Below, piece by piece: positions 11,202-49,338 of a stretch of 58,027 nucleotides of DNA. Below the pieces are notes generated by a model. That model was not told the DNA's origin and ran no database searches. It saw only the letters and a list, made by a program, of their open reading frames with translations. The stretch spans positions 1 through 58,027 of the forward strand of contig CALWKC010000016.1 in assembly GCA_944381165.1 (NCBI GenBank), written 5' to 3'. The DNA comes from an uncultured Lachnospira sp. (lineage in GTDB: Bacteria > Bacillota > Clostridia > Lachnospirales > Lachnospiraceae). A program made the translations under genes and the position numbers. The first letter of the stretch is position 1. Every line of letters starts with the position of its first letter.

Positions 11202-12779
11202 TTACTCTCCGCAACTACCAAGTTCATCCATATCCAATTCCACTTCAATATGTTTATCCGTTTTAAGTTTGGAAAGCAAAGCCACCGTCTCCACATGCAC
11301 CGTATGCCCAAACTGGTCAACAGGCTGCACCTTCTTAACCTCATATCCGTTCGCGGTTAAGTACTTCAAATCGCGTGCAAGGGTAGCCGAATCACAGCTC
11401 ACATAGACAATCCTCTCCGGGCTCATTTTAACAATAGTATCAAGAAGCGTTTCGTCACATCCCTTTCTTGGCGGGTCAACGACAACAACCTCCGGGTGCA
11501 GACGTCTCTCAGCTTCCGTTTGGGCGGCAGCATCAGCGCCATTCAGTTCCCTTTCATTGCTCGCATTCTGTATAGCGGCAGATATACGGCTGCTGCCATT
11601 ATTTCCGCTTACGGCAGTCAACTCTGCCGTTTTGCCGTCTCTGTCACGGCTTGCGGCAGTCTTGGCATCCTGCTCATACATTTTCGGGACTACCTCCTCT
11701 GCCCTGCCGACAAAAAATTTGGCATTGGTGATTGAGTTTAATGCGGCATTGTTTTTGGCGTCCTCTATTGCCTGCGGGACGATTTCGACGCCGTAGACAC
11801 GGCGTGCTTTAGTTGACATCAGAAGCGAAATTGTCCCGATGCCGCAGTAAAGGTCCCACACCGTCTCATTTCCGGTCAGCCCGGCATATTCAAGCGCCTT
11901 GAGATACAGCTTTTCAGTCTGTCTCGGATTAACCTGAAAAAAGGACAGCGGCGAAATTCTGAACATAATTTTGCATATGCTGTCCTCGATATATGATTTT
12001 CCCCACAGCGTGACACATTTGCTGCCGAGAATTACATTTGTCTTTTCCTTGTTTATGTTAAGCATTACCGACGTCATTCCCGGAAGCGCCGAGAGGCGTT
12101 TGACAAGCTTGTCCGCTGCCGGAATCGAATTTCCGTTAATTATAAGACACACCATAATCTGTCCCGTATGGTAGCCCGTTCTTATCAAAATATGTCGAAC
12201 AAGACCGCTGTGACTCGACTCATCATAAACACTTATATTATTTTCCTCAATAAACTCACGGATTTGCTCCAGAATAGCCTTGTTTTCCACGGCGCCTATG
12301 CAGCAGTCCGTATAATCAACAATGCTGTGCGTCCTGCCTGCATAAAATCCTATAATAACCCTGCCGTCCCTGCTTCGTCCGACAGGATACTGTGCCTTAT
12401 TGCGGTAGTGAAACGGCTCGTCCATGCCGATTACGGGAAGCACCTCGCAGTCAATACCGCCTATACGCAAAAGATTATCCTTAACGAGCCTGCGCTTATA
12501 CTTAAGCTGCGCCTCATACGACATCTGCTGTATCTGGCAGCCGCCGCACTGTCTCGCGACAGGACATCTCGGCTCGACGCGCTCCTTTGACGGAGTTATA
12601 ATTTCCATAAGGCGGGCGTAGCCGTAATTCTTTTTTGCCTTCATAATCTTTGCACGAATTATGTCGCCTATCACCGCATCCTTTACAAACAGCGTATATC
12701 CGTCAGCCTTGCCTATTCCTGCACCGTCCGTTCCTATATCTTCAATCGTCAAAGTGACGCAGTCATCCTTTTTAAACAT
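11202..12779 (-). CDS. rlmD: 23S rRNA (uracil-5-)-methyltransferase, RlmD/TrmA family, with altered C-terminus
   Basis: SAM-dependent C5 methylation of a uracil in 23S rRNA. An N-terminal TRAM domain (DCVTLTIEDIGTDGAGIGK) precedes an iron-sulfur cysteine cluster (CPVARQCGGC, plus a Cys in DYTDCC). The Rossmann part has VWDLYCGIGTISLLMS, VVVVDPPRKGC and the catalytic-loop Cys in YVSCDSATLARD. Two oddities. About 60 Ala/Ser/Asn/Glu-rich residues (about 364-427) are inserted before the VVVVDPP strand. The end, KLKTDKHIEVELDMDEL then GSCGE, looks like the start of the extended HTH-type tail seen in many Lachnospiraceae homologues, cut short; together with the att-like repeat it suggests a tail supplied by an integrated element. 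The SD (GGAG, 5 nt from ATG) lies inside the 11-bp duplication of the repeat element upstream. Confidence 0.92.
   Translation of the reverse strand: MFKKDDCVTLTIEDIGTDGAGIGKADGYTLFVKDAVIGDIIRAKIMKAKKNYGYARLMEIITPSKERVEPRCPVARQCGGCQIQQMSYEAQLKYKRRLVKDNLLRIGGIDCEVLPVIGMDEPFHYRNKAQYPVGRSRDGRVIIGFYAGRTHSIVDYTDCCIGAVENKAILEQIREFIEENNISVYDESSHSGLVRHILIRTGYHTGQIMVCLIINGNSIPAADKLVKRLSALPGMTSVMLNINKEKTNVILGSKCVTLWGKSYIEDSICKIMFRISPLSFFQVNPRQTEKLYLKALEYAGLTGNETVWDLYCGIGTISLLMSTKARRVYGVEIVPQAIEDAKNNAALNSITNAKFFVGRAEEVVPKMYEQDAKTAASRDRDGKTAELTAVSGNNGSSRISAAIQNASNERELNGADAAAQTEAERRLHPEVVVVDPPRKGCDETLLDTIVKMSPERIVYVSCDSATLARDLKYLTANGYEVKKVQPVDQFGHTVHVETVALLSKLKTDKHIEVELDMDELGSCGE
11282..11297 (-). repeat. 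att-like direct repeat, rlmD copy
   Basis: Encodes HVETV near the rlmD 3' end; matches 8973-8988 at 14 of 16 positions in direct orientation. It brackets the DUF2971 and RhuM genes with the other copy. Confidence 0.45.
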
Positions 12780-12782
12780 AAA

Positions 12783-12935
12783 ATCTCCATTCCGGAGCGT
12801 TTACGCGAAGGAACGCGAAGAAAAATTCGCGCAGGCGATTTTTCTTCTGCGATAAGCTCTGTTTGTGACGCTCCGGCACAAACAGTGGTGTAAACAATAA
12901 GCTATCAAGCTTATTGTTTACACTATCTCCATTCC
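12783..12935 (-). mobile_element. Structured repeat element, type A copy 1, with 11-bp flanking duplication
   Basis: Read on the minus strand, between yhaM and rlmD. Left flank GGAATGGAGAT (12925-12935); a 16-bp perfect hairpin (stems 12888-12903 and 12908-12923); GTTTGTG-CCGGAGCG-T-CACAAAC; a GAAGAAAAATCGC/GCGAATTTTTCTTC hairpin; then CGCTCC joined to the right flank GGAATGGAGAT (12783-12793), which is the rlmD SD. The central 95 nt are about 93% identical to copy 2 at 46532-46687. Removing the element and one flank leaves a 21-nt yhaM-rlmD gap with a normal SD. It is the size of a MITE and encodes no protein. Confidence 0.75.
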
Positions 12936-39289: not shown

Positions 39290-39360
39290 GATAACCTCCA
39301 TTCCGGAGCGATTTACGCCTGCGTCAGCTCTGCTGACGCTATTATACTCTACTTAAAAAG
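39290..39360 (-). repeat. Type A-related element, shortened, before mazG
   Basis: The minus strand ends with GCGTAAATCGCTCCGG-AATGGAGG, the same 3' end as type A copies 1 and 2, against the mazG SD. It lacks the GTTTGTG/CACAAAC hairpin; in its place is GCGTCAGC-AGA-GCTGACGC. No second flank copy is visible. Confidence 0.6.
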
Positions 39361-46531: not shown

Positions 46532-46687
46532 GATTGGAGGATAACATGAAAAATCACGCTGACGCGCTGATTTTTCATACTGCTGTTTGTGCCGGAGCGT
46601 CACAAACATACGCTATCGCAGAAGAAAAATCGCCTCAGCGAATTTTTCTTCGCGTTCCTCCGCGCAAAACGCTCCGGATTGGAGGAT
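46532..46687 (+). mobile_element. Structured repeat element, type A copy 2, with 11-bp flanking duplication
   Basis: Flanks GATTGGAGGAT at 46532-46542 and 46677-46687, each holding an SD. Inside: hairpin ATGAAAAATCACGC/GCGCTGATTTTTCAT; GTTTGTG-CCGGAGCG-T-CACAAAC; GAAGAAAAATCGC/GCGAATTTTTCTTC; CGCTCCG at the end. About 93% identical to copy 1 over the central 95 nt. The first flank is followed by an ATG that would start an in-frame leader through the element; the second flank is the ATPase SD. Confidence 0.78.
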
Positions 46688-46692
46688 TTTTT

Positions 46693-49338
46693 ATGAAAGA
46701 TTTCTGGAATTGTTCCGCCGACGAAACACTGAAGCATTTCGGTACAACCGCAGCGGGCTTAAGCGATTCGGAAGTACTTCGCATCCGAGGGGAAAAGGGT
46801 GAAAATGCCCTTATGGAACAGCAGCCCCCAAGCATTGTAAAAGTATTTCTCAGCCAGTTCTGCGACCTGCTGATCGTGATTCTCATTATAGCCGCGATTA
46901 TCTCTATGTTTTCCGGCAACGCAGAGAGCACGATAGTTATTCTGCTGGTGCTCATCATGAACGCCATTCTCGGAACTGTACAGCACGTCAAGGCGCAGCG
47001 TTCTCTTGACAGTCTCAAGCAGCTCTCTTCGCCAAGCGCAAAGGTTATGAGAAACGGTCAGAAGGTGGAAGTGCCTTCAAAGGATATTGTTCCCGGAGAC
47101 CTCGTTCTTCTGGAAGCCGGAGATTTAATTGTAGCTGACGGCAGAATTCTTAACAGCTATTCTCTCCAGGTAAACGAGAGCGCCCTCACAGGCGAATCAA
47201 CAAACGTCGATAAATTTGACAAAATACTCGACAGCAAAACTCCTCTCGCTGACAGAATTAACATGGTTTATTCGGGAAGTCTTGTCACCTACGGCAGAGC
47301 CGAGGTGCTTGTTACAGCGACAGGTATGGAGACAGAGCTCGGAAAGATTGCAGGTCTTATGAATGCGGTTAAGGAGCGCAAAACTCCGCTTCAGGTCAGT
47401 CTCGACCAGTTCAGCCAGAAGCTCGCAATTATGATTATGATTATAAGCGCGGCTGTATTTGCGCTCTGTATCTACAGAAAAATGCCGCTCCTTGACTCAA
47501 TGATGTTTGCAGTCGCCCTCGCGGTTGCCGCAATTCCTGAAGCTTTAAGCTCAATCGTCACAATTGTGCAGGCTATGGGAACTCAGAAAATGGCAAAGGA
47601 AAATGCCATTATAAAGGAACTCAAAGCCGTAGAAAGTCTGGGCTGCGTATCTGTAATATGTTCCGACAAGACAGGTACACTCACACAGAATAAAATGACA
47701 GTCCAGAAGGTCTACATTGATTTTAAGGAGCTGCTTCCTACACAGCTTGAGCTCGACAATCCTCTGCACCGCTATCTTCTCTATGATGCAGTACTTACAA
47801 ACGACTCAAGTCTCGTTGACGGAAAGGGTATAGGCGACCCTACCGAATACGCTCTTCTTGAAATGTTCAGAAATATTCCTGTTCCAAACTCAGGCTCAAA
47901 AGAGAGCACACAGTTTACAGAGGACCATATAAGAAAATATATGACTCGGCTAGAGGAAGTGCCTTTCGACTCAAACAGGAAACTCATGAGTACAAAGTAC
48001 AACATACATCAGACTCCTACCGTGCTTACAAAGGGAGCTGTCGATGTTCTTCTTGACAGATGTACTCTTATTCAGACCTCAGACGGCATACGGCCTATAA
48101 CAGAAGATGACCGCGCGGCTGTCAGAAAACAGAACGAAGCCTTTTCAATGGAAGGACTCAGAGTTCTCGCATTTGCATACAAGGAATGCGATGAGCCGCT
48201 CACTCTCGAATGCGAGAACAACTTTATATTTACAGGTCTTGTTGCAATGATGGACCCGCCTCGTCCGGAAGCCATAAAGGCTGTAGCAGACGCAAAGCAT
48301 GCTGGAATTCTTCCTGTCATGATTACAGGCGACCACAAGATTACAGCTACTGCCATTGCTAAGACTATCGGTATTTTTAAGCCGGGCGACATTGCCGTAA
48401 CCGGAAGCGAGCTTGACGCAATGAGCGATGAGGAGCTTGACAGTAAATTGGAACACATTTCCGTATACGCGAGAGTATCTCCTGAAAACAAAATCAGAAT
48501 TGTAGAGGCATGGCAGCGAAAAGGAAAAATTGTCTCTATGACAGGCGATGGAGTAAACGACGCACCTGCCCTTAAAAAAGCGGACATCGGCGTTGCTATG
48601 GGCATAACAGGAACAGAGGTATCAAAAGACGCCTCTGCCATGATTCTGGCTGACGACAATTTTGCGACTATTATAAAGGCTGTAATAAACGGACGAAACG
48701 TGTACCGCAATATAAGAAATGCTATTTTATTCCTGCTGTCGGGAAATATGGCTGCAATACTCGCAGTTCTTTATACCTCCATCGCAGGACTCCCGGTTCC
48801 GTTTGCTCCCGTACACCTTTTGTTCATCAACCTGCTTACTGATTCTCTTCCGGCTATTGCAATCGGAATGGAGCCTACTGACGGATCGCTTCTGGACGAA
48901 AAGCCAAGAGATCCTTCAGCGGGCATACTGAGCCGTTCGTTCCTCGGACGCATTTTCGGTCAGGGTGCTTTGATTGCTGTTGTTGTAATGACGGCTTATT
49001 ATCTCGGCTATAATGACCCGATGAACAATTCGGCTCTTGCAGCTACAATGGCATTCGCTACGCTTACGCTTGCACGTCTGTTCCACGGCTTTAACTGCCG
49101 AACAAGCAAGCCTATCGCCAAAGCCGGATTATTTTCAAATATATACAGTGTAGGCGCATTTTTAGCCGGCGTCTGTCTGCTGACACTGGTACTGTGTGTT
49201 CCTTTCCTGGAAAAACTCTTTACCGTTACGCCTCTCACCGGCACTCATGTATTACAGATTATTGTTCTGGCATTTGTGCCTACTCTGACAATTCAGATTA
49301 TAAAGTCAATTATGTATATTGTTAAAAAGAAAAACTGA
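46693..49338 (+). CDS. P-type cation ATPase (Ca/Mn type, SERCA-like)
   Basis: 881 residues, type IIA. Actuator motif ALTGESTNVD, phosphorylation site CSDKTGTLTQNK, hinge TGDGVNDAPALKKADIG, and the metal-site helix AVAAIPEALSSIV (SERCA has PEGL). The yybP-ykoY riboswitch upstream indicates Mn2+ export, as for related riboswitch-controlled pumps; Ca2+ transport remains possible. The ATG at 46693 is chosen because GGAGG lies 7 nt upstream and MKDFWNCSADETLKHFG is a normal N-terminus. An in-frame ATG at 46546 would add about 49 residues encoded by the repeat element. Confidence 0.93.
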   Translation: MKDFWNCSADETLKHFGTTAAGLSDSEVLRIRGEKGENALMEQQPPSIVKVFLSQFCDLLIVILIIAAIISMFSGNAESTIVILLVLIMNAILGTVQHVKAQRSLDSLKQLSSPSAKVMRNGQKVEVPSKDIVPGDLVLLEAGDLIVADGRILNSYSLQVNESALTGESTNVDKFDKILDSKTPLADRINMVYSGSLVTYGRAEVLVTATGMETELGKIAGLMNAVKERKTPLQVSLDQFSQKLAIMIMIISAAVFALCIYRKMPLLDSMMFAVALAVAAIPEALSSIVTIVQAMGTQKMAKENAIIKELKAVESLGCVSVICSDKTGTLTQNKMTVQKVYIDFKELLPTQLELDNPLHRYLLYDAVLTNDSSLVDGKGIGDPTEYALLEMFRNIPVPNSGSKESTQFTEDHIRKYMTRLEEVPFDSNRKLMSTKYNIHQTPTVLTKGAVDVLLDRCTLIQTSDGIRPITEDDRAAVRKQNEAFSMEGLRVLAFAYKECDEPLTLECENNFIFTGLVAMMDPPRPEAIKAVADAKHAGILPVMITGDHKITATAIAKTIGIFKPGDIAVTGSELDAMSDEELDSKLEHISVYARVSPENKIRIVEAWQRKGKIVSMTGDGVNDAPALKKADIGVAMGITGTEVSKDASAMILADDNFATIIKAVINGRNVYRNIRNAILFLLSGNMAAILAVLYTSIAGLPVPFAPVHLLFINLLTDSLPAIAIGMEPTDGSLLDEKPRDPSAGILSRSFLGRIFGQGALIAVVVMTAYYLGYNDPMNNSALAATMAFATLTLARLFHGFNCRTSKPIAKAGLFSNIYSVGAFLAGVCLLTLVLCVPFLEKLFTVTPLTGTHVLQIIVLAFVPTLTIQIIKSIMYIVKKKN

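Follow-up and report, generated by a model that had tools for sequence, protein, structure and literature searches.

A candidate small mobile element that inserts at Shine-Dalgarno sites and duplicates them in Lachnospira

Introduction

Two similar segments of about 150 nt lie 34 kb apart in a 58,027-nt stretch of DNA from an uncultured Lachnospira sp. (hereafter the window), each immediately before a gene and each between 11-bp direct repeats. How could such a segment enter the Shine-Dalgarno (SD) site of a gene and leave the gene with an SD? A first-pass annotation made from the sequence proposed that they are copies of a mobile element that duplicates the SD on insertion. Here we compare the two copies with their relatives in the same genome, in a close relative and in more distant bacteria. 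These comparisons document filled and empty alleles, duplication of the SD, a position at start codons, a hairpin architecture and right ends that lack the left part. We put at roughly 80% the probability that the segments represent a small interspersed mobile element that carries no gene and the folded strand of which is copied into the SD of a gene, so that the SD then stands on both sides. That this is a mobile element inserting at the SD and duplicating it is well supported by the comparison of alleles. With an SD copy on each side, the gene keeps an SD at normal spacing.

Results

Two copies in the window

The 11-bp direct repeats at the two loci are present as the first-pass annotation described them and differ from each other (GGAATGGAGAT and GATTGGAGGAT; Table 1). 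It had also held that the duplicated bases contain the downstream SD, and in both copies the right repeat sits at the place expected for it. Removal of the body and one repeat of copy A leaves 21 nt from the upstream stop codon to the rlmD start, the normal gap that had been anticipated. The likeness between the two copies is a real match, but blastn puts it at 87% over 118 nt rather than at about 93% over 95 nt as first estimated. A third site in the window retains only the final portion of the element, and the nearest relative compared carries a full element there (L290).

Table 1. Features of the element copies in the 58,027-nt window.
Feature	Positions	Strand	Remarks
Copy A, element body before rlmD	12794..12924	minus	131 nt; H1, H2, H3, H4 and right end CGCTCCGG
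Copy A, left 11-bp repeat	12925..12935	minus	GGAATGGAGAT; upstream SD copy
Copy A, right 11-bp repeat	12783..12793	minus	GGAATGGAGAT; SD adjoining the rlmD start codon
Copy A, H2	12861..12883	minus	Loop complementary to right end
Gene downstream of copy A	11202..12779	minus	525 aa; name rlmD from the first-pass annotation, fits the protein by eye
Copy B, element body before ATPase gene	46543..46676	plus	134 nt
Copy B, left 11-bp repeat	46532..46542	plus	GATTGGAGGAT
Copy B, right 11-bp repeat	46677..46687	plus	GATTGGAGGAT; the sole copy in the empty site of G020 (L177)
Copy B, H2	46585..46607	plus	GTTTGTG, loop CCGGAGCGT, CACAAAC; loop complementary to CGCTCCGG at 46670-46677
ATPase gene downstream of copy B	46693..49338	plus	ATG 46693 as in the empty allele; name from the first-pass annotation
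Third site, remnant right end	39290..39318	minus	GCGTAAATCGCTCCGGAATGGAGGTTATC; before gene starting 39289; right-end motif 39296-39309

In copy B, an ATG after the left SD opens 49 codons through the element (46546-46693), in frame with the ATPase gene. Annotation of the ATPase may add an N-terminal extension through copy B that is absent from the empty allele.

A family of elements in Lachnospiraceae

In its own genome (GCA_944381165.1, listed as 100% complete; hereafter G000), copy A has 33 blastn matches, a total that includes the query and a self-complementary H1 segment, and the right-end pattern GCTYNGRAATGRRG has 62 matches, against none for the same pattern reversed. Together with the empty sites in a close relative described below, these counts show that the resemblance of the window pair is not due to chance. 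Thirty-eight of the 62 right-end sites were examined as extra loci: 36 of them immediately precede a start codon followed by an open frame, and two are internal to genes. At many sites the 3′ part is present alone, beginning at H2, beginning at H3 or comprising only the last 15-30 nt. The left part can also be lost after insertion, the copies at pyrE and L283 being shorter in G000 than in the nearest relative.

A blastn search of 61 genomes, G000 included, gave element matches in 14, one of which (G043) belongs to another family of the order. The exact H2 pattern occurs in 81 stretches of named GTDB contigs, labelled mostly Lachnospiraceae or Eubacterium; among 295 genomes of the order it is found in G000 only, an undercount that misses diverged copies such as those of G043. 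Relatives of the element are scattered, mostly among Lachnospiraceae. The plasmid and phage collections searched gave no element match. One IMG/VR contig with the H2 pattern (L334, 8719-8741) has an H2-like hairpin followed by CGCTTCGGAGG; given its G+C-rich context, it was taken as unrelated and probably a chance match.

Some copies depart from the common plan. Extra hairpins lie within H3 or H4, or between H1 and H2, in L035, L077, L047, L118 and L086, from which the element seems to grow in a modular way. Three Eisenbergiella contigs (L110, L111 and L113) carry a minimal form, H2 plus the right end, before what seems to be one and the same gene, which hints that some function preserves the loop pairing. 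L020 and L024 have different downstream genes and about 80 nt of upstream flank in common, which may have arisen through recombination between the two or where the assembly was joined at the end of a contig.

Position before start codons

Under a loose rule, which 1051 of 3260 random positions also satisfied, 160 of 164 copies (47 of the 164 from G000; five copies near a locus end left out) lie directly before the start of an ORF, in keeping with the expectation of the first-pass annotation that insertions would be found at SD sites. In three of the four exceptions (L104, L019 and L059), the next feature downstream is a further element. Elements in tandem or close succession are seen at L104, L019, L085 and L059; at L019 (xpt), the second copy sits at the SD left behind by the older one. 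The downstream proteins, named by eye, are of varied housekeeping kinds and apparently unrelated. The motif AATGRRG also precedes several window genes that carry no element; the target resembles an ordinary host SD, and AATGRRG is common as such.

The frame that starts at the RTG in H1 is open in 25 of the 50 aligned copies, compared with three copies for each of the other two frames; a looser count gives 31, 2 and 8 of 58 copies. In most copies, one of the other frames starts with a TGA; if counting begins after H1, 20 of the 50 have this frame open. The peptides differ between subfamilies. With this variation and the rival frame, we see no case for a selected peptide encoded by the element.

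Filled and empty sites in related genomes

The nearest relative compared (G020) is 96-98% identical to G000 over four loci and about 85% complete. Querying 54 genes in it yielded 40 usable site pairs: a first set gave 14 of 18 genes among the matches listed (17 counted), and a second gave 27 of 36, of which L276 was unusable. L275 was cut by a contig end, L287 and L288 were left out of the comparison, and L258, L264 and L280, which differ between the two genomes, were kept out of the insertion count as their alleles are ambiguous.

In 11 of the 40 pairs an insertion is present in one genome only. Nine are filled in G000 only (ATPase, larC, nth, manC, uvrA, the second copy at xpt, L256, L257 and L266) and two in G020 only (L284 and L286), so the two genomes do not carry the element at the same sites throughout; the first-pass annotation had named the opposite outcome, occupation of the same sites in every relative with no empty allele, as one that would count against mobility. 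Its proposed search for empty sites with one SD copy was borne out letter for letter before the ATPase gene, where G020 has AAGATTGGAGGATTTTTTATG, with one SD and no element; the duplication in G000 is therefore an exact 11 bp. It had looked for an empty allele before rlmD as well, but copy A is also present in G020 (L176). In eight more distant members of the genus the element model had no match before rlmD, and the spacers are too diverged for an exact empty allele.

The element model found two matches among the 89 site records of more distant genomes, both in G016 (pyrI, L222; nrdG, L246). Both genes carry elements in G000 too; these may be old shared insertions or repeated insertions at the same SD. 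A short form of the element stands at manC of the more distant G015, so the G020 manC allele could be a loss. L256 is the one short insertion with an empty partner, and its left repeat has decayed. At ftsW (L181 and L026), the 3′ half of the element is common to G000 and G020 and H1 and H2 are different, as if half of the element had been converted.

Duplication of the target

Flank anchors could be placed in 87 of the 113 full copies, and 84 copies remained after removal of duplicates; some left anchors lie inside the SD (for example in L007, L012 and L009). The end of the left flank shared a mean common end of 4.4 nt with the right flank of the same copy, compared with 2.6 nt when partners were shuffled within groups. 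None of 2000 shuffles scored as high for the 84 copies, and 40 of 2000 did for the 12 copies of G020 alone. A second repeat score (“matches”) gave no signal in G000 (4.74 vs. 4.77 shuffled) and a weak one overall (2/2000); we rely on the common-end score because the window of the “matches” score is set off the SD. Odd SDs are mirrored on both flanks, as with GGGG in L046 and AATGTGAGG in L106, and the left junction falls about 3 bases after GGAG.

A script that walks the overlap between filled and empty alleles, allowing only exact matches at the right edge and tolerating mismatches at the left, found an exact duplication of at least 9 bp in five of the 11 one-genome insertions: ATPase (11 bp), uvrA (12 bp), L266 (9 bp; 7 bp by eye), L284 (23 bp) and L286 (20 bp). 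In the last two, the target carried the right-end motif beforehand. The other six gave 5 bp (larC), 3 bp (L256), 1 bp (xpt) or none (nth, manC and L257). By eye, the duplication at manC is 15 bp (CAGGAATGGAGATTA), and at nth, larC, xpt, L256 and L257 a flank has decayed or its letters are unlike those of the empty allele; at L257, both flanks differ from the empty allele. The apparent duplication length ranges between about 7 and 20 bp, the greatest lengths being found at targets that were already similar to the right end.

The first-pass annotation had allowed that the 11-bp flanks could instead be a conserved end of the element. The repeats agree site by site, but GGAATG is almost constant at the right end and AATGRRG is frequent among host SDs, so that some of the repeat reflects the consensus of the family.

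The direct repeats at the ATPase, uvrA and L266 sites, about 7-12 bp long, and the site-by-site agreement of repeats across the 84 copies are what would be left by an ordinary MITE-like element moved by a DDE transposase with a preference for AATGGAG, the repeats then being normal target-site duplications. We nevertheless find this doubtful. No terminal inverted repeats were seen by eye in the two window copies or in the alignment, the ends AGTRTGAAAAAT and CGCTCCGG having no inverted match, and the apparent duplication ranges from about 7 to about 20 bp. Of the two DDE families covered, Transposase_mut had no match in G000, G020, G005 or G043, and DDE_Tnp_1 had none in G020, G005 (each about 85% complete) or G043.

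A conserved hairpin architecture

Covariation was assessed in 50 of the 84 dereplicated full copies, hand-picked and without most of the copies that hold long inserted hairpins. Hairpins H1, H2 and H3 together with a pairing between the H2 loop and the right end were paired in 95.1% of cells, compared with 78.5% after shuffling and 36-44% after sliding, and 27 of 41 pairs had changes on both sides (301 cells vs. 87 shuffled). The loop-to-right-end helix was 92.5% paired, with changes on both sides in four of its eight pairs. H4 offers these right-end letters an alternative partner, with poorer pairing (77.8%); as both pairings use the same letters, they are mutually exclusive.

Among the 1645 cells of the stems H1-H3, 15 are G·T and 23 are A·C (G·T 0.95%); the loop-to-right-end helix has 12 G·T and 6 A·C, and the three inner H4 pairs have no G·T and 4 A·C. 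In 34 tRNAs, 49 of 738 pairs were G·T (6.6%); ARAGORN tRNA brackets hold no mismatches, so the comparison with tRNAs applies to the G·T share only. Where pairing is selected in RNA, G·U should persist much more frequently than A·C. Set beside this expectation, the scarcity of G·T relative to tRNAs leads us to infer that pairing in H1-H3 is maintained at the DNA level, or through template-directed palindrome correction; template-switch correction could itself produce the low G·T. The loop-to-right-end pairing alone could be an RNA pairing, as its G·T outnumber its A·C.

The last point is also relevant to the proposal that the element is a cis-regulatory RNA that acts on the SD, was spread by recombination and is kept for regulation. 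Its sense orientation before start codons would suit such a role, as would a loop-to-right-end pairing that covaries, favors G·T over A·C and is kept by short forms, and a right end that can pair with H4 as an alternative. Yet the downstream genes look unrelated by eye, the occupied sites differ between genomes that are 96-98% identical, and G·T is scarce in H1-H3. A search of Rfam 15 at gathering and permissive thresholds gave no family match in the element, the matches being one tRNA in the window and two weak ones outside the element in six loci. Regulation as the reason for its spread is, on this evidence, quite improbable.

Candidate enzymes

None of the enzyme families RVT_1, Y1, DDE_Tnp_1 and Transposase_mut accompanies the element. 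The transposase with matching ends that the first-pass annotation suggested looking for was not found among these four families.

Mostly Watson-Crick stems, the lack of visible inverted repeats and a single Y1 gene in G000, IS200-like by eye, are features that would fit single-stranded hairpin DNA moved by a Y1 (HUH) transposase, with the right SD as the element’s own cleavage site rather than a duplication; element-like letters in the right flank at xpt, L266 and nth point the same way. At the ATPase site, however, the right flank is the target’s unusual GATTGGAGGAT. Moreover, G032 (99% complete) has 13 element matches and a Y1 fragment only, G003 has three Y1 matches and no element match, and the 3.1-kb locus of the G000 Y1 gene contains no element. 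Movement by Y1 is thus unlikely.

The right parts that stand alone at many sites also recall the 5′-truncated copies of a bacterial SINE-like element, for which the SD would prime reverse transcription on the 3′ end of an RNA. The variable duplication, the resemblance of the target to the 3′ end and the short insertion with an empty partner at L256 could be accommodated in this way. Retrotransposition is nonetheless very unlikely: RVT_1 has no match in G000, listed as complete, G·T does not outnumber A·C in H1-H3, and the left part can also be lost after insertion, as at pyrE and L283.

Discussion

The reading that we favor is copying of a folded DNA strand, guided by the likeness between SD and 3′ end, since duplications differ in length and the longest of them accompany the longest likeness. 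In the mechanism that we propose, a single DNA strand would fold into hairpins H1 to H4, and the target SD would join it by matching the element’s own right end, GGAATG plus SD. The left cut would fall about 3 bases after GGAG, and the folded strand would be copied in as DNA, in sense orientation at the SD, by some enzyme or by template switching at replication. The mover may possibly be a transposase of another family. More tentatively, this could be a selfish element whose insertion is directed by its own 3′ end matching host SDs, without a conventional transposase. Under such matching-directed insertion, the host could not easily lose the target, because the ribosome holds the SD constant, and insertion would be tolerated because the SD is duplicated. 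The family would then represent a novel mode of DNA movement, in which homology guides the copying of a folded strand into sites of translation initiation.

If the reading of SD insertion and duplication is right, the element lands at a position that is among the most tightly constrained in an operon and rebuilds it, so that operons for ordinary metabolism and RNA modification can be entered at little cost. The natural pairs of filled and empty sites offer material for studying how structured leaders affect translation, and the family is a test case for whether short sequence matching can direct transposition. Start-codon annotation may also be misled by the element, as at the ATPase gene of the window.

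Several kinds of small repeats invite comparison. Rickettsia palindromic elements are palindromic repeats able to add in-frame codons; in contrast, insertion here is at the SD, and the added coding stretch seems incidental. MITEs, of which RUP, NEMIS/Correia and ERIC are examples, share with the present element a short length, the lack of an own gene and flanking direct repeats, and target-site duplication is seen here. They are characterized, in the part of the source consulted, by terminal inverted repeats (PMC3049150), a defining feature, whereas none were seen in our element. In a 2024 MITE review (PMC10969869), the terms “Shine-Dalgarno”, “ribosome binding” and “start codon” do not occur. 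More generally, no SD-targeting element was found in the parts of the PMC literature consulted, a scope outside which most subscription papers and all preprints fall.

REP and REPIN sequences with their RAYT (TnpA-REP) proteins resemble the element, as far as the accounts consulted go, in high copy number, in being non-coding and hairpin-built, and in being thought to be moved in trans. REPs are described in the part consulted as 20-40 bp long and tagged by GTAG or CGTC (PMC3733652), whereas the element here is about 130 nt, lies at the SD and has SD copies on both flanks. Nor does it share the placement of repeats beside a Y1 gene that marks the REP/REPIN-RAYT system: the sole Y1 gene of G000 has no element nearby. 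The element thus lacks a defining feature of MITEs and, as far as tested, one of the Y1-REP system. BOX elements of Streptococcus pneumoniae are, in the sections consulted, small interspersed repeats with strong hairpins, proposed to be parasitic, found inside other repeats and transcribed as extensions of operons (PMC3049150). They too are small hairpin repeats, and SD targeting is not mentioned in that part of their description. The nearest known kinds are REP/REPIN and BOX elements.
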